Shown here: piece by piece, positions 28,132-64,000 of the stretch
Position numbering within the stretch: position 1 is the first letter of the stretch
How the letters are laid out: each line of letters starts with the position of its first letter
DNA from: Bauldia sp.
Lineage (GTDB): Bacteria > Pseudomonadota > Alphaproteobacteria > Rhizobiales > Kaistiaceae
Assembly: GCA_026126025.1 (NCBI GenBank)
Contig: JAHCJZ010000005.1
Coordinates: forward strand, 62,001 to 126,000
Length of the DNA: 64,000 nucleotides
Reading direction: 5' to 3'
Notes under the pieces: model-generated
Database searches by the model: none
What the model saw: the letters and a program-made list of their open reading frames with translations, nothing else
What the model was told of the DNA's origin: nothing
Program-made: the position numbers and the translations under genes

Positions 28132-28215
28132 CGTCACCCCGGCGAAGGCCGGGGTCCAGAAGCGGCAAGCTCTGTGCTCGCGGCTCCTGGATTCCGGCCT
28201 TCGCCGAAAGGACGA
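28132..28215. repeat. Palindromic repeat element, family B (copy 1, complete)
   Basis: Two inverted halves about 25 bases apart: cgtcaccccggcgaaggccg with the adjacent gggtccag, and ctggattccggccttcgccg. Each half is itself a hairpin. This type is widespread between genes of alphaproteobacteria. It lies upstream of mazG, together with a family C element about 110 bases to the right; the bases between (28216-28326) hold nothing recognisable. Confidence 0.85.
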
Positions 28216-57303: not shown

Positions 57304-58812
57304 ATGCTGATCGAGCCGCCCGTCGACCGCTTCACGCGCGCCTACGATTCCGGCACGCCGCAGGTCGTCTGGACCCGTCTCGTCGCCGACCTCGAGACGC
57401 CGGTCTCGGCGATGCTGAAGCTGTCGGCCGGCCGGGCGAACTGCTTCCTCCTGGAGTCGGTCGAGGGCGGCGCGGTGCGCGGCCGCTATTCGGTGATCGG
57501 CGTCGACCCCGACCTCATCTTCCGCATCCGCGACGGCGCGGCCGAGATCGACCGCGCCCCGGCGGGCGGCGGCGGCTTCACGCCGATGAACGCGCGTCCA
57601 CTCGACGCCCTGCGCGCGGTGGTGCGGGAATCCTCCATCGACATGCCGCCGGGCCTGCCGCCTATGTCGGCCGGCGTCTTCGGCTATCTCGGCTACGACA
57701 TGGTCCGCGAGATGGAGGAGCTGGCGCCGCCCGGCCCCGATCCGCTCGGCCTGCCCGATGCGATCATGCTGCGCCCGACGGTGATCGTCGCCTTCGATTC
57801 GGTGAAGGACGAGATGATCGTCGTGACGCCGGTACGCCCCGACGGGTCGCGCGCGGCCGACGCGCATGCCCGCGCGGTCGACCGGCTGACCGCGATCGTC
57901 GAGGCGCTCGACGCGCCGCTCCCCAAGGCGGCCGACGGCGCCGCCGACGTCACCGCGGAAGAGCCGAAGTCGAACACGCCGAAGGACCGCTATCTCGACA
58001 TGGTGGCGCAGGCGAAGGAATACATCGCGGCCGGCGACATCTTCCAGGTCGTGCTGTCGCAGCGCTTCGAGACCCCCTTCACGCTGCCGCCTTTCGCGCT
58101 CTATCGCGCGCTCCGCCGCACCAACCCCTCGCCCTTCCTCTACTATCTCGACTTCGGCGGCTTCGCGCTGGCGGGTTCAAGCCCGGAGATCCTGGTCCGG
58201 GTGCGCGACGGCGAGGTCTCGATCCGCCCGATCGCCGGCACCCGCCCGCGCGGCGAGACCCCGGAAACCGACAAGCGCCTCGCCGAGGAGCTCCTCGCCG
58301 ACCCCAAGGAGCGCGCCGAGCACCTGATGCTGCTCGACCTCGGCCGGAACGACGTCGGCCGGGTCGCCGAGATCGGCTCGGTGAAGGTCACCGACCAGTT
58401 CTTCCTCGAATATTACAGCCACGTCATGCACATCGTGTCGAACGTGGTCGGCCGCCTCGCGCCGCAGCACGACGCGATCGCCGCCCTCGCCGCCGGCTTC
58501 CCCGCCGGCACCGTCTCCGGCGCGCCGAAGGTCCGCGCGATGGAGATCATCGACGAGCTGGAGAGCGAGAAGCGCGGCATCTACGCCGGCTGCGTGGGCT
58601 ATTTCTCGGCCGGCGGCGCCATGGACACCTGCATCGTGCTGCGCACCGGCCTGGTGAAGGATGGGGTGATGTACGTCCAGTCCGGCGCGGGAATCGTGGC
58701 GGACTCCGTGCCCGAAAGCGAGTATGAGGAATGCCGCGCCAAGGCTCGGGCTCTGTTCCGTGCCGCGGAAGAGGCGGTCCGGTTCGCCTCCGCAGTGGGG
58801 CGGGGTCAGTAG
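57304..58812 (+). CDS. trpE: Anthranilate synthase component I
   Basis: A 502-residue enzyme with the N-terminal domain containing the feedback site (CFLLESVEGGAVRGRYSVIG, the Leu-Glu-Ser motif that binds tryptophan) and the chorismate-binding C-terminal domain (YLDMVAQAKEYIAAGDIFQVVLSQRFE, GSSPEILVRV, IAGTRPRGETPETDKRL, FPAGTVSGAPKVRAMEIIDELE). It makes anthranilate from chorismate with the glutaminase TrpG. Related species have trpG close behind; here trpG is 5 kb away, beyond an accessory cargo. No trp leader peptide is visible in the short gap after ppiD. Confidence 0.97.
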   Translation: MLIEPPVDRFTRAYDSGTPQVVWTRLVADLETPVSAMLKLSAGRANCFLLESVEGGAVRGRYSVIGVDPDLIFRIRDGAAEIDRAPAGGGGFTPMNARPLDALRAVVRESSIDMPPGLPPMSAGVFGYLGYDMVREMEELAPPGPDPLGLPDAIMLRPTVIVAFDSVKDEMIVVTPVRPDGSRAADAHARAVDRLTAIVEALDAPLPKAADGAADVTAEEPKSNTPKDRYLDMVAQAKEYIAAGDIFQVVLSQRFETPFTLPPFALYRALRRTNPSPFLYYLDFGGFALAGSSPEILVRVRDGEVSIRPIAGTRPRGETPETDKRLAEELLADPKERAEHLMLLDLGRNDVGRVAEIGSVKVTDQFFLEYYSHVMHIVSNVVGRLAPQHDAIAALAAGFPAGTVSGAPKVRAMEIIDELESEKRGIYAGCVGYFSAGGAMDTCIVLRTGLVKDGVMYVQSGAGIVADSVPESEYEECRAKARALFRAAEEAVRFASAVGRGQ

Positions 58813-58834
58813 CCTCCGCTTCTCCGCACGCGCT

Positions 58835-58866
58835 CCTCGTTATTCCGGCGAAGGCCGGAATCCAGC
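58835..58866. repeat. Palindromic repeat, family B, single left half
   Basis: ctcgttattccggcgaaggc continuing cggaatccag, the left half of a family B element. No right half follows within 60 bases, unlike the complete copies at 28132 and 37556; the matching right half is at 63725-63757, across the cargo region. It lies 22 bases behind the trpE stop. Confidence 0.8.
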
Positions 58867-59071
58867 GCCGGAAGACACACCAGGCGGGACCGAGACGATC
58901 TCCACTCGATGCCAGTTGCCCGATTCCGCGTCATCGTGCGTCGTACCCTATCCACGTAGATAGCGCCCTTCCGCGCGAGGCATGTCACCGTCCCCGCGGT
59001 GATCCGAGCGAAACCGCCGGCACCGTGCGGCGCTTTGGTCGCTTCAAAAAAGTACAGGGAAGGAAAAGGGG

Positions 59072-60784
59072 ATGGGCATGCGCAAGTTCAAGCTCAAGTC
59101 ATTGGCGCGTCTGGCGGTCAGCGCGAGTGCCGTTGCAATGGCGTTTCCGGTCGCCGCGGAAGAGCCAGTCACATTCGAGAGACTCTCGAACCAAGAGCCC
59201 GCCAACTGGCTGACGGTGTACGGCAACTACGCCGGGTGGAGGTACTCGGAGCTTGATGAGATCAACCGGGACAATGTAGCAGACTTGCGGGTTGCCATTG
59301 CGGTGCCGATCGCAATGCGCGCCGGCTTGGGGGGCGCAAACTACGCGGTGCCGCTGGTCGACGATGGATTCCTCTACACCAACGATAGCAACAATGCGGT
59401 GGTCAAGATCGATCTCAAGAGCGGCCGAGGGGACTACCTTTGGACCACCGCGCTCGCCGCTTCTGACATCGCCGCGGGGAGAGTCCAGGGCAATGCCCTC
59501 TGGCAGAACGCCATCATCGCCAATACGCGCGACGCGCACATAGTCTCGATCGACAGGGAAACCGGCGAGGTCAACTGGGATCAGCTGGTGGGCGTTCCGG
59601 GCGAGAGCACAAACGCGGCGCCGGTTGCTCTGGAGAACATAATCATCGTCAGTCAATCCGCGGGTGACGCCGGCACGCGCGGCTGGGCCGCGGGGCTGGA
59701 TGCGAGCACCGGTGACGAACTGTGGCGCTTCTACATTGTGCCTGGACCGGGCGAGCCCGGACACGAGACATGGCCGCAGGACAACGACGCCTGGATGACG
59801 GGTGGTGGAGGCCTTTGGGTCGCCCCGACCTACGACGTGGCGACAAACATCGTCCTATGGGGAACGGGCAACCCGGCGCCCTCGTTCGACCCGGAGTTCC
59901 GGGCCGGCGACAACCTGTACACCAATAGCAGCGTGGCGCTGGACGCCAGCACCGGCGAGCTGGTCTGGTACTTCCAGTATTTGCCGGGTGATTACCTCGA
60001 CCATGACGCTATCGGCATAAATCAATTGTACGACATCGAAATCGATGGCGCAGTTCGACAGGTCCTCGGGCATATCAACAGGACCGGGTATTTCTACACG
60101 ATGGACCGGCAGACCGGGGAGTTCATCCTTGCCACGCCGGTTCAGACCAATATCGATTGGACCTCCGGAATCGACCCGAAGACAGGCTTGCCGGTCGAGT
60201 ACAATCCGGATGTCGGTCTGCAGGACTATGGCAATCCTGTGCGGCGCGACGCAGGTCCGGTGGACAATTGCGGCGGTCAGTTCGTCACTGGGACGTGGCA
60301 GCCGGCTTACGACCCCAACCGTCAGGTTGTATACACTACTTACGTGGATACGAGTTGCTGGATGGACGTCGTACCTGCTTTCGACGCCACCAGATCTGCT
60401 GAGGAACGCTGGGCGAATGTCGGCCTTGGCGGACAGTTTACCCTTTACGAGGAGAACTTCCGCGTCGGCGCAATTGACGTCGTGACCTCTTCAATCCAGT
60501 CCGCCGAACTGCCGGCCTTTACACAGTCCGGCGTGCTTGCAACGGCAGGCAATGTGATCTTCTTCGGCGATTCCTACGGCACGTTCTCGGCACACGATTC
60601 CGACACGCTCGACCAGCTATGGTCGATCAATGTCGGTTCCTCGATGAGATCGCCGCCGATCGCATTCGAGATGGACGGCAAGCAGTATATCGCGATCCAG
60701 TCCGGTGGCTCAGGTGGCTTTGCCGGAGTGAGCGTGGTCGGAGCTCCGCCGAACTCCGCAATGCTGTGGGTCTTCTCGCTCTGA
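59072..60784 (+). CDS. PQQ-dependent dehydrogenase-like quinoprotein (exported)
   Basis: A 570-residue exported protein with the eight-bladed propeller pattern of PQQ alcohol dehydrogenases. The signal peptide ends near AFPVAA. Recognisable motifs are EPANWLTVYGNYAGWRYSELDEIN, IVLWGTGNPAPSFDP (Asn267), RAGDNLYTNSSVALDASTGELVW and PGDYLDHDAIG, where Asp310 is the expected catalytic Asp and Asp312 gives the D-x-D pair of lanthanide enzymes. Three departures are seen: no vicinal Cys-Cys pair in the segment near residue 140; Asp199 where the usual metal-binding Glu stands (SAGDAGTRG); no cytochrome domain. Oxidation of an alcohol or sugar in the periplasm is likely but not certain. GC content is below that of the core genes. 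A strong hairpin follows. Confidence 0.85.
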   Translation: MGMRKFKLKSLARLAVSASAVAMAFPVAAEEPVTFERLSNQEPANWLTVYGNYAGWRYSELDEINRDNVADLRVAIAVPIAMRAGLGGANYAVPLVDDGFLYTNDSNNAVVKIDLKSGRGDYLWTTALAASDIAAGRVQGNALWQNAIIANTRDAHIVSIDRETGEVNWDQLVGVPGESTNAAPVALENIIIVSQSAGDAGTRGWAAGLDASTGDELWRFYIVPGPGEPGHETWPQDNDAWMTGGGGLWVAPTYDVATNIVLWGTGNPAPSFDPEFRAGDNLYTNSSVALDASTGELVWYFQYLPGDYLDHDAIGINQLYDIEIDGAVRQVLGHINRTGYFYTMDRQTGEFILATPVQTNIDWTSGIDPKTGLPVEYNPDVGLQDYGNPVRRDAGPVDNCGGQFVTGTWQPAYDPNRQVVYTTYVDTSCWMDVVPAFDATRSAEERWANVGLGGQFTLYEENFRVGAIDVVTSSIQSAELPAFTQSGVLATAGNVIFFGDSYGTFSAHDSDTLDQLWSINVGSSMRSPPIAFEMDGKQYIAIQSGGSGGFAGVSVVGAPPNSAMLWVFSL

Positions 60785-60818
60785 GCTGAGGGGCGCTCCG
60801 TCCCTGGGACGAGTTTCT

Positions 60819-60850
60819 GGAGGGGCAATCGAACGCCTGATTGCCCCTCC
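60819..60850 (+). terminator. Hairpin terminator after the quinoprotein gene
   Basis: A perfect 12-base stem, ggaggggcaatc with gattgcccctcc, around the loop gaacgcct. It lies 35 bases behind the stop codon. A T tract is nearly absent (attctcc), as is common for high-GC species. Confidence 0.75.
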
Positions 60851-60877
60851 ATTCTCCCGCGAAACGAGTGATGGTTC

Positions 60878-62326
60878 GTGGCCCTGCTCCCTGGTTCTCT
60901 GCCGGCCGGCATCTTGATCCTGGCCCTGATGCTGCCGGGAGCGGCGGCGGCCCAGCAAGACCGGATGACCATCTGGGACATCCCTCTCGGCGCGGATGTC
61001 GAGGACATTCCGGCTGACGCGGTGGCGTTGATAGCGTGCGGGACAAATGGCGGACCGCCGTCGACCCGTTTGCCGTCATTTGCGGCTTTCACCACATGCG
61101 CCGAAGAAGAGTCGGGCCTTCGCGAGGTCCATTTCGTCTACGACGACGAGCAGGAGTATGTCGCACTGGCCCGCGGCAACGAGGCTATGGCGTCGCGTGC
61201 GGGCACGCGGGTGGCCGGGTTTCAGGCCATTGTTTCGCTGCTGGTGAACGACGACGGCCTTGTGCGCGGGCACCGCATCGTGAGCGATCCGAGGGCCGCT
61301 GACCTCGCCGAGCGGGACACTGCGGTGGCACTCGGTGATTTCATCATCGGGCTCCTCGGCTCGGGTGGATGGGCCTGTGTCGAAGCCACGCCGATGGCGG
61401 GCTACAACCCGGCTGACGGTCGATATTTGGATCGCCGCTGCACGAAGACTGACGAGCGGGCAGGCTGGCACGCCACGATCATTCAGCATCACTATCGAAA
61501 ACCCGGACAGACTGAACTCAATCCTTTCGATGCCGAGGCTCAGCCGGGCTATCTGGAAAGCAGCACCCGATTTGAGCTCGAGGCGACTTCGCTGGAAGGC
61601 GCACCCCGGGAATGGGCAGCTGAGTGGGAGGATTCCTCCCATGAGCAGTCGGAGGTATTGAATTGCCCGGGTTGCGACCTCACCGGCGCGAACCTCAAAC
61701 GCTTCAGCCTCGCGGGCGCCAACCTGGCTGGCGCCGTTCTGCGCGACGCGAATCTCCATGATGCCGACCTGACCGGCGCCGACCTCTCCGGAGCGGATCT
61801 GACCGGCGCCAACCTGAACAAGGCGCGCTTGCCGCGGGCCAACCTGTCGGGAGCAGTGTTGGAGGGCGCGATGTTGTTTGCGGCCGATCTGTCGGCGGCG
61901 AACCTGACCGGCGCGAACCTTTCCTCCGCGCTCATGGGCCGGTCTCGATTGACCCGGGCGGTCCTGGTCGATGCGCGGCTCGACCGCGCTGATCTGTGGG
62001 GCGCGAGCCTTCCGGACGCGAACCTGACCGGCTCGGAGATCAGAGGAGCGCGGATCGTCGAGGGAAACCTCGCTCGCGCGAACCTCACCGGCGCCGTCCT
62101 CGACGGAAGCATCCTGGCGGCCGCTCTACTGAATGGCGCGGTGCTCCGCGGAGCATCCGCGATGGGGGTGGATTTCTATGGAGCGCAGCTGCGCGGTGCG
62201 GACCTCACCAACGTCAATCTCAGCGGGTCCCGTCTGACTTCGAGCGTCCTGACGGATGCGATCCTCGATGGAGTCGTATTCGACAACGCGATAATGCCGA
62301 ATGGACGACCATATTCGGACGAGTGA
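60878..62326 (+). CDS. Exported pentapeptide-repeat protein with N-terminal domain of unknown function
   Basis: A 482-residue protein. A signal peptide (LPAGILILALMLPGAAAA) is followed by a domain of about 230 residues with no recognised family (IWDIPLGADVEDIPADAVALIACGTNG, YDDEQEYVALARGNEA and a Cys-rich part around GWACVEATPMAGYNP...DRRCTK). From Cys263-x-x-Cys266 in CPGCDLTGANLKR to the end run about 43 pentapeptides of the A(D/N)LxX type. The same CxxCDLTGA start is in the protein at 35625. Repeat domains of this length usually form a rigid beta-helix. The start is GTG at 60878. The gene is 27 bases behind the quinoprotein terminator and 72 before the converging LuxR-type gene. Confidence 0.85.
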   Translation: MALLPGSLPAGILILALMLPGAAAAQQDRMTIWDIPLGADVEDIPADAVALIACGTNGGPPSTRLPSFAAFTTCAEEESGLREVHFVYDDEQEYVALARGNEAMASRAGTRVAGFQAIVSLLVNDDGLVRGHRIVSDPRAADLAERDTAVALGDFIIGLLGSGGWACVEATPMAGYNPADGRYLDRRCTKTDERAGWHATIIQHHYRKPGQTELNPFDAEAQPGYLESSTRFELEATSLEGAPREWAAEWEDSSHEQSEVLNCPGCDLTGANLKRFSLAGANLAGAVLRDANLHDADLTGADLSGADLTGANLNKARLPRANLSGAVLEGAMLFAADLSAANLTGANLSSALMGRSRLTRAVLVDARLDRADLWGASLPDANLTGSEIRGARIVEGNLARANLTGAVLDGSILAAALLNGAVLRGASAMGVDFYGAQLRGADLTNVNLSGSRLTSSVLTDAILDGVVFDNAIMPNGRPYSDE

Positions 62327-62398
62327 CGCTGGATTGCGGCCCCTAAACCGAGAACCCCGCGTTGGGGAAAGAGGCGCGCGCTCCCGTCCTGACGGATC

Positions 62399-63547
62399 TC
62401 AGTCGCCGTGCGGCAGGAGCGTCTGCAAAGGACCCAGGATCGCGCCGATCGCTCGCATCAGATCTCGCTGATTGTGGGTATCGGTCTTCCAGAAGAGCCT
62501 TTGAAGGTGAAACCGCACCCCCGCCTGCCCAATACCGAGACGCACCGCAATATCGTCGATGCCGAGACCGCCGGCGAGTAGAGCGGCAACGGCCGACTCT
62601 CGCATTGTCAGCTGAAACGCGTCTCGAAGATGGTCCTGGAACTCGGTCGGCGCCGCCGATTTCGCCGAAGAGACCCTGACCACGAACAAGATCGCTGCCG
62701 GCTGGGTCGCTCCGATGAGCGCTTCAAGGCCCTTGCTGTCCTCGACGCCGACCACCACCGCCACGGCATGCGTTGGATGGTCTTCTTTGGTGAGGCGCAC
62801 CAGCCGGGGTGACATCGGCGAGGGATTGTCGAGTGCTTCCTGAAGTGCAGGGTCTTGGGTTCGCTCAGCGTAGCGAATTTCACCGTGCTCGCTGGTTCCC
62901 ACCAGATCGCTGTTCCTCAGGAGCTCCTTTCCAGCCTCGTTGGCAACCAGGACCTTCCGGCTTCGATCCAGAACAAAGAGGGGCAGCCGGATGCCATTGA
63001 TCGCATAGGATGAAAATCCTGAATACTCACGTTGAACAAACGCCGCGCGCGATACCCTTAATACTTGACCGACATACGCAGAAATTCGCTGCAATCCCCA
63101 GAGTTCTGCATCGCTAAACGGAGTATCTTCGCTGGGGCGCATGCACGCGATTATGAATCGTACGCCGTCCTCAACAAAGATCGGGACCGATATTATTTGC
63201 GACGCGCCTGACGGACGGTAAAACTCCTGATATACTGTACTTCTTTCGTAATCGTCGGGATCAATAACATCCTGCAGTCTATACGCTCTACCCGAAGGCT
63301 GGCTCAACATGCGTTGCCAGATAATATCATTGTCGCTGAAATTGCTCTCGTAGATTTCCTGCTCCACGTCGGTGTAGCCAAAGCTGCCTGCTGCTGCACG
63401 AAACCGCGGTCGTTCGACCAACGGCGCCAGCCCCACCTTGGAGGCATGGAACGCGACGCTCATCGATGCCAGCCAGCCCTGCCAGTCGCCGGCGACCGTG
63501 GCCTCCCCAAAGGAGAGGGAAAGTGCATTCAGGACGTCATCCGGCAT
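62399..63547 (-). CDS. LuxR-type helix-turn-helix transcriptional regulator with PAS-like domain
   Basis: A 382-residue regulator. The C-terminal DNA-binding domain is LTMRESAVAALLAGGLGIDDIAVRLGIGQAGVRFHLQRLFWKTDTHNQRDLM, a clear but divergent LuxR helix-turn-helix (the usual T-V-R-x-H-L is G-V-R-F-H-L). The central part (LPLFVLDRSRKVLVANEAGKELL) looks PAS-like; the first 180 residues form an unassigned sensor domain. No autoinducer-binding signature and no partner LuxI are present. The ATG of MPDDVLN was chosen; the ribosome site is aaagg. It converges on the pentapeptide gene and may control the cargo. Confidence 0.82.
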   Translation of the reverse strand: MPDDVLNALSLSFGEATVAGDWQGWLASMSVAFHASKVGLAPLVERPRFRAAAGSFGYTDVEQEIYESNFSDNDIIWQRMLSQPSGRAYRLQDVIDPDDYERSTVYQEFYRPSGASQIISVPIFVEDGVRFIIACMRPSEDTPFSDAELWGLQRISAYVGQVLRVSRAAFVQREYSGFSSYAINGIRLPLFVLDRSRKVLVANEAGKELLRNSDLVGTSEHGEIRYAERTQDPALQEALDNPSPMSPRLVRLTKEDHPTHAVAVVVGVEDSKGLEALIGATQPAAILFVVRVSSAKSAAPTEFQDHLRDAFQLTMRESAVAALLAGGLGIDDIAVRLGIGQAGVRFHLQRLFWKTDTHNQRDLMRAIGAILGPLQTLLPHGD

Positions 63548-63724
63548 ATGACACTGCCTTTCAAAGTCCCGGGACTGCGCGGGGCCTTTGACGCGACGTT
63601 CGGCGAAATCGTGATGAAAACTGTAGCAACCGGCGGGCACCCGCGCCACTATCCAAATGCTCGACACGCCCGGGCGCGATCAGCCGGACTATTGCCCGGG
63701 CAACTTGCTCGCTCCGTCGTGTGG
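63548..63724. other. Non-coding gap between the LuxR-type gene and the repeat near trpG
   Basis: This stretch must hold the promoter of the LuxR-type gene (minus strand). No tRNA, open frame with family signals, or clear promoter pair was recognised. The bases from 63758 to 63870, between the repeat and trpG, likewise show nothing decisive; no trp leader peptide with Trp codons was seen. Confidence 0.5.
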
Positions 63725-63757
63725 CCCTGGATCCCGGCTTCGCCGGGATGACGAGGG
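63725..63757. repeat. Palindromic repeat, family B, single right half
   Basis: ctggatcccggcttcgccgg continuing gatgacgag, the right half of a family B element. Its reverse complement matches the left half at 58835 including the outer ctcgt bases. Complete copies elsewhere in the window have the two halves 25-30 bases apart, here they are 4.9 kb apart. Confidence 0.8.
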
Positions 63758-63870
63758 TGAAGTGGCCGCTACAGGCCACCCTCTCGACAATGGCGCCCAC
63801 GAACGACACCATTGCATTGCGGTCGGCAAAGTGACAGAGCACGTTTGGTCCGACGCTTGGCAGAGTACCG

Positions 63871-64000
63871 ATGTTCCTCGTCGTCGATAACTACGACAGC
63901 TTCACCTACAACCTCGTCCATTTCCTGGGCGAGCTGGGGGCGGAGCTTGTCGTGCGCCGCAACGACAGGATCACCGTCGGCGACGTGATGGCGATGGACC
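63871..64000 (+). CDS. trpG: Anthranilate synthase component II (partial, cut by window end)
   Basis: The first 43 codons read [32 protein letters not shown], the standard start of the glutamine amidotransferase TrpG (also PabA). The rest, with the catalytic Cys and His, lies beyond the window. It supplies ammonia to TrpE. In related species it follows trpE directly or nearly so. Confidence 0.93.

Follow-up and report, generated by a model that had tools for sequence, protein, structure and literature searches.

A 4.8-kb quinoprotein and pentapeptide cassette between trpE and trpG probably entered a resident REP pair

In this Bauldia genome, trpE and trpG are separated by a 4.8-kb cargo whose two borders are complementary parts of a single REP pair. 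When position 58865 is joined to 63699 in silico, a full, ungapped pair is restored, which scores 67.3 bits compared with 70.6 and 60.5 bits for the intact copies in the window (the whole 64,000-nucleotide stretch analyzed, within contig C41 of the source genome, G000). Because the borders join without a gap, isolated REP units are rare in the genome and relatives lack the cargo, entry into an existing repeat is well supported. We estimate a probability of roughly three in four that the cargo is a recent, probably horizontal insertion into a REP pair resident at this site. It is moderately unusual for such a cassette to be captured cleanly with no transposase; the repeat and the gene families are of known kinds. 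The source assembly is 3.2 Mb in size, 99.6% complete and divided into 45 contigs. The open reading frame list and family scans place trpE, the three cargo genes and trpG where the initial annotation had them. The features of the locus, and two intact REP pairs for comparison, are:

57304–58812, plus strand: trpE, anthranilate synthase component I (TIGR00564, 565.8 bits, over the cut-off)
58837–58865, plus strand: left unit of the interrupted REP pair, hairpin ATTCCGGC-GAAG-GCCGGAAT at 58842–58861, tail CCAG
58866–63698, no strand: cargo, 4.8 kb, GC 0.618 versus 0.689 for the window; recognized by composition and by absence from the scorable intervals of 38 relatives
59072–60784, plus strand: exported quinoprotein, PQQ alcohol-dehydrogenase-like (PF01011, 179 bits)
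60878–62326, plus strand: exported protein with a four-cysteine domain, here called PentaN, followed by pentapeptide repeats (PF00805)
62399–63667, minus strand: LuxR-type regulator with a GerE DNA-binding domain (PF00196, 30.9 bits)
63699–63726, plus strand: complete spacer of the interrupted REP pair, ungapped once joined to the left unit
63727–63754, minus strand: right unit, hairpin ATCCCGGC-TTC-GCCGGGAT at 63731–63749, 3-nt loop
63812–63834, plus strand: motif TTGCATTGCGGTCGGCAAAGTGA before trpG, kept in the alignment with both congeners and G008
63871–64000, running past the window end, plus strand: trpG, anthranilate synthase component II, 202 aa
28131–28215, minus strand: intact REP pair, 60.5 bits
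37556–37641, minus strand: intact REP pair, 70.6 bits

The repeat, 85 bp overall, consists of two CGTC-type REP hairpins of 27–29 bp that are placed head to head across a spacer of approximately 28 nt. About 220 units are present genome-wide and none was returned by a reversed-pattern control, on which ground we rejected chance hairpins as their origin. Nearly always, two unlike units face each other across the spacer, which measures 24–31 nt in 58 of the 59 paired loci examined. The left border unit and the intact copies have the CGTC-type tag on the outside, an 8-bp stem, a 4-nt loop and the CCA tail on the inside. The complete copies that the initial annotation had reported at 28132 and 37556 do score as intact pairs. 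CGTC-1 REPs are described as head-head heterodimers with the tag CGTC, an 8-bp stem, a 4-nt loop and a CCA tail (PMC3733652). Our repeat shares with them the tag (CGTC, or TGTC/CCTC), the stem with its terminal A-T pairs, the loop, the tail, the heterodimeric arrangement, and an intergenic position, often just past the 3′ end of a gene, with no dedicated transposase. It is also present in high copy, paired in opposite orientation within the 20–100 bp that define a CGTC-1 head-head dimer, and unaccompanied by a RAYT gene. The trpE-trpG pair differs from the class in being interrupted by 4.8 kb and in the 3-nt loop of its right unit. CGTC REPs are without a dedicated or known transposase (PMC3733652), and the Y1_Tnp/RAYT family (PF01797) has no match in this genome, for which reason we rejected a RAYT/Y1 transposase as the mobiliser. 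A literature search for the letters of the repeat gave no match. At the same threshold the two congeners have 6 and 17 units compared with 220 here, so the amplification looks recent and the element between trpE and trpG is probably young.

We built a profile with 88 positions from 51 intact pairs and aligned the borders to it. The left border (58837–58874) covers model positions 2–39 with 30.3 bits, and the right border (63695–63754) covers positions 27–87 with 28.6 bits. The initial annotation had described these as the left and right halves of one palindrome. Half elements are indeed present at both borders, but each of them forms a complete short hairpin on its own, and the right edge retains more than a half: the whole spacer together with the right unit (63699–63754). 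The left unit is one base off the consensus of a 27-bp sequence that is repeated about 100 times in the genome. The right unit has a recognizable tag, stem and tail, and its sequence is unique in the genome; relative to the usual partner type it has one compensated stem pair and one missing loop base, which we count against the insertion reading. The spacer beside it is of the resident type, with the CCGTCGTGTGGC end seen in the copies at L090 and L100.

How often such partial elements occur was surveyed in 1.18 Mb, about 37% of the genome, sampled as stretches. We found 38 intact and only 5 partial elements, and two of the five partials are the cargo borders. The idea that isolated units are common, which the initial annotation had named as an observation that would speak against insertion, is rejected by these counts. 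A different history is that two separate REP pairs bordered the cargo and each lost its opposite part by deletion, in which case the complementary halves are coincidental. Partials do occur elsewhere (C1:76625, C1:212939 and C4:49654), and the two border units differ in type. Partials, however, account for only 5 of 43 elements, and five placed at random would include a complementary, correctly oriented pair within 5.1 kb with a probability of about 0.011, or about 1%, with the ungapped junction left uncounted. That junction, at the boundary between unit and spacer, makes the coincidence rarer still, and we regard paired deletions as unlikely. It is also conceivable that the right-hand unit, wholly or partly, came with the cargo, which recombined with the resident REP pair. 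The uniqueness of the right unit favors this possibility, as do similar ATCCC-type stems in family members such as G005 and G008. Yet the spacer is typical of residents, and a crossover between REP pairs would yield two complete pairs, not complementary parts, so that an origin of the right unit with the cargo seems distinctly improbable.

The trpE-trpG interval was scorable in 38 relatives, and none of the 38 has a homologue of a cargo gene between the two genes. The second observation named at the outset as contrary to insertion, that relatives all carry the same cargo, is thus not what the comparison returned. The relatives are not close: full-length TrpE matches from the same family are 74–79% identical to the window TrpE, and even the nearest relatives reach only approximately 78%. 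The interval usually measures 13–28 bp. It is 1323 and 946 bp long in the congeners, where it encodes a small exported protein and contains further short frames, unrelated to the cargo; its contents differ again in other relatives. Because the congeners carry 0.9–1.3 kb of other genes here, trpE and trpG had already been separated within the genus. The cargo does lie between the two genes, as first described, but it is not their sole separator; the interval is prone to gaining genes. None of the 15 longer intervals that were read out has a REP unit between trpE and trpG, and no scored relative shows an empty REP element here, which we count against the insertion reading. The earlier proposal that the cargo entered an existing repeat is upheld by the restored 67.3-bit element, the rarity of partials and the absence of the cargo from relatives, although the intervals lacking the cargo hold no REP unit. 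A literature search for splitting of trpE and trpG gave no match.

Two other genes were noted at this position in relatives. In both congeners (L040 and L041), a gene for an exported protein of approximately 140 aa abuts trpE; no counterpart turned up in the stretches of the window's genome that were sampled. In four relatives from different families (L072, L073, L074 and L076), a similar small phosphatase-like gene with an RHAKS/RHTKS motif lies between trpE and trpG, and we presume that it resembles SixA.

Upstream of trpG, the conservation of 63812–63834 in the congeners and G008 suggests that trpG kept its own promoter, and this motif is the probable promoter. With this conserved region still in front of trpG, the insertion should have little effect on tryptophan synthesis.

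The cargo is also atypical in composition. The quinoprotein, pentapeptide and regulator genes have GC3 values of 0.755, 0.749 and 0.648. The 505 background genes taken from the same genome average 0.887 (sd 0.051); values of 0.755 or less occur in 2.4% of them and values of 0.65 or less in 0.2%. These values bear out the lower-GC codon choice that had been noted for the cargo. Most paralogous modules have GC3 near 0.87–0.91, indicating that the gene family as a whole is not low in GC. The simplest reading of the composition would be a recent arrival from a lower-GC genome.

We suggest that a REP pair resided between trpE and trpG, ahead of the trpG promoter and approximately 22 bp beyond the stop codon of trpE. 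The 4.8-kb segment, probably from a related bacterium of lower GC, would have entered at the junction of the left unit and the spacer, with the left unit staying by trpE and the spacer and right unit staying by trpG. Entry may have occurred by transposition in trans, with the helper lost, or by illegitimate joining at a hairpin-prone break. In agreement with the initial annotation, which saw neither a transposase nor a target duplication, the open reading frame list and family scans of the three cargo genes reveal no transposase or integrase in the cargo, and a junction-repeat search found no direct repeat of at least 7 bp. Terminal inverted repeats of at least 5 bp are likewise absent from the cargo ends. 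DNA inserted between the partners of a REP pair is mentioned in PMC3733652, and IS elements that insert specifically into REP sequences have been described (PMC1525189). The cargo has in common with these IS elements the use of a REP element as a landing site for foreign DNA; it differs from them in having no transposase, terminal repeats or target duplication.

A further possibility is that the cargo and the two REP units form one mobile unit, a gene-carrying REP pair moved in trans by a hairpin-recognising enzyme. Inverted REP units do bound the cargo, and REP pairs are thought to be mobile (REPINs; PMC3116915). None of the other quinoprotein/pentapeptide modules examined, however, is bounded by REP units as the cargo is, and the same cassette bounded by partial REPs was not found elsewhere in the 1.18 Mb. 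Given also that CGTC REPs have no known transposase (PMC3733652) and that the genome has no Y1_Tnp gene, we consider joint movement very unlikely. An assembly artefact at the repeat, for which the roughly 100-fold repetition of the 27-bp left-unit sequence and the 45 contigs could be cited, is scarcely credible for a left unit one base off consensus, a right unit unique in the genome and a cargo whose closest PentaN homologue is in the same genome.

If the cargo was inserted into a resident pair, the pre-insertion element that can be restored from its flanks marks the arrival of a gene cassette in a class of REPs that has no known mobiliser. The idea that REP pairs act as insertion sites is now testable in other genomes. 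It is a long shot that whole cassettes land in the spacer of CGTC-type REP pairs with no transposase involved, and that this route helped spread quinoprotein/pentapeptide modules in the lineage.

The quinoprotein aligns along its full length with PQQ alcohol dehydrogenases of known structure (1yiq and 1kv9) and scores 348.9 bits against TIGR03075, below the curated cut-off of 480. It has a D-x-D motif at 310/312 with both aspartates, which the literature takes to signal lanthanide binding (PMC11996626), and Asp199 at the position where a metal-ligand Glu is usual. We aligned 35 quinoproteins, 33 from this genome, including that of the window, and two from G223. The second Asp of the motif is present in all 35 and the first in 23; the metal-ligand Glu is replaced by Asp in 34 of the 35, and an adjacent-Cys pair (CC) occurs in none. 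The window protein thus carries the lanthanide-type D-x-D and has neither of the classical features, the adjacent-Cys disulphide and the Glu. Two pqqC genes score over the family cut-off (G000:C45:115970 and G000:C12:155636), so the genome probably makes PQQ. The N-terminus of the LuxR-type regulator has a weak GAF-like match (PF13185, 24.2 bits, below the cut-off), and the genome encodes three further long homologues of this regulator.

A comparable gene arrangement is found in the ped/exa cluster of Pseudomonas, which comprises the quinoprotein PedE, the pentapeptide protein PedD and a transcriptional activator, and in which growth with short-chain alcohols suffered when pedD was truncated (PMC12997753). 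The likeness is one of gene arrangement: a quinoprotein dehydrogenase beside an exported pentapeptide-repeat protein, with a regulator close by. In the cargo, in contrast, the pentapeptide gene follows the quinoprotein gene, the regulator is convergent, and a cytochrome c550 gene was not recognised. By analogy, the module most likely oxidises alcohols or aldehydes in the periplasm and is controlled by its own regulator.

The cargo does not stand alone: about 20 related quinoprotein/pentapeptide modules, this one among them, are dispersed in the genome. PentaN is a domain of approximately 220–225 aa with four invariant cysteines, encoded at 60953–61621 in the window. It has no match in Pfam, NCBIfam or the PDB, and a fold search with an AlphaFold2 model (mean pLDDT 92.4) returned no significant PDB match. 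This genome has 20 copies of the domain and G009, of the same family, has 17; each congener has one (a weak match in G002), and the 37 other relatives have none. Quinoproteins of the cargo type are also expanded in both genomes, with 35 copies here and 25 in G009; the congeners have 17 and 13, and other members of the family mostly none or one. The two kinds of gene are often adjacent and in tandem (for example at L166, L167, L168, L169 and L171), and at most loci examined the quinoprotein gene directly precedes the PentaN gene on the same strand. In the named genomes, a quinoprotein gene lies no more than 700 bp upstream at 42 of 84 PentaN loci and within 4 kb at nearly all. The window PentaN has its closest homologue at C12:85.5 kb (support 0.97), and both belong to a four-member clade confined to this genome. 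The cargo thus points to a large, mostly undescribed set of quinoprotein/pentapeptide modules. At one locus, L169 (G000:C34:222–226 kb), a second low-GC quinoprotein and LuxR module was observed, with GC3 values of 0.755 and 0.633; its LuxR frame is interrupted by a TAA, and the module is followed by an intact REP pair.
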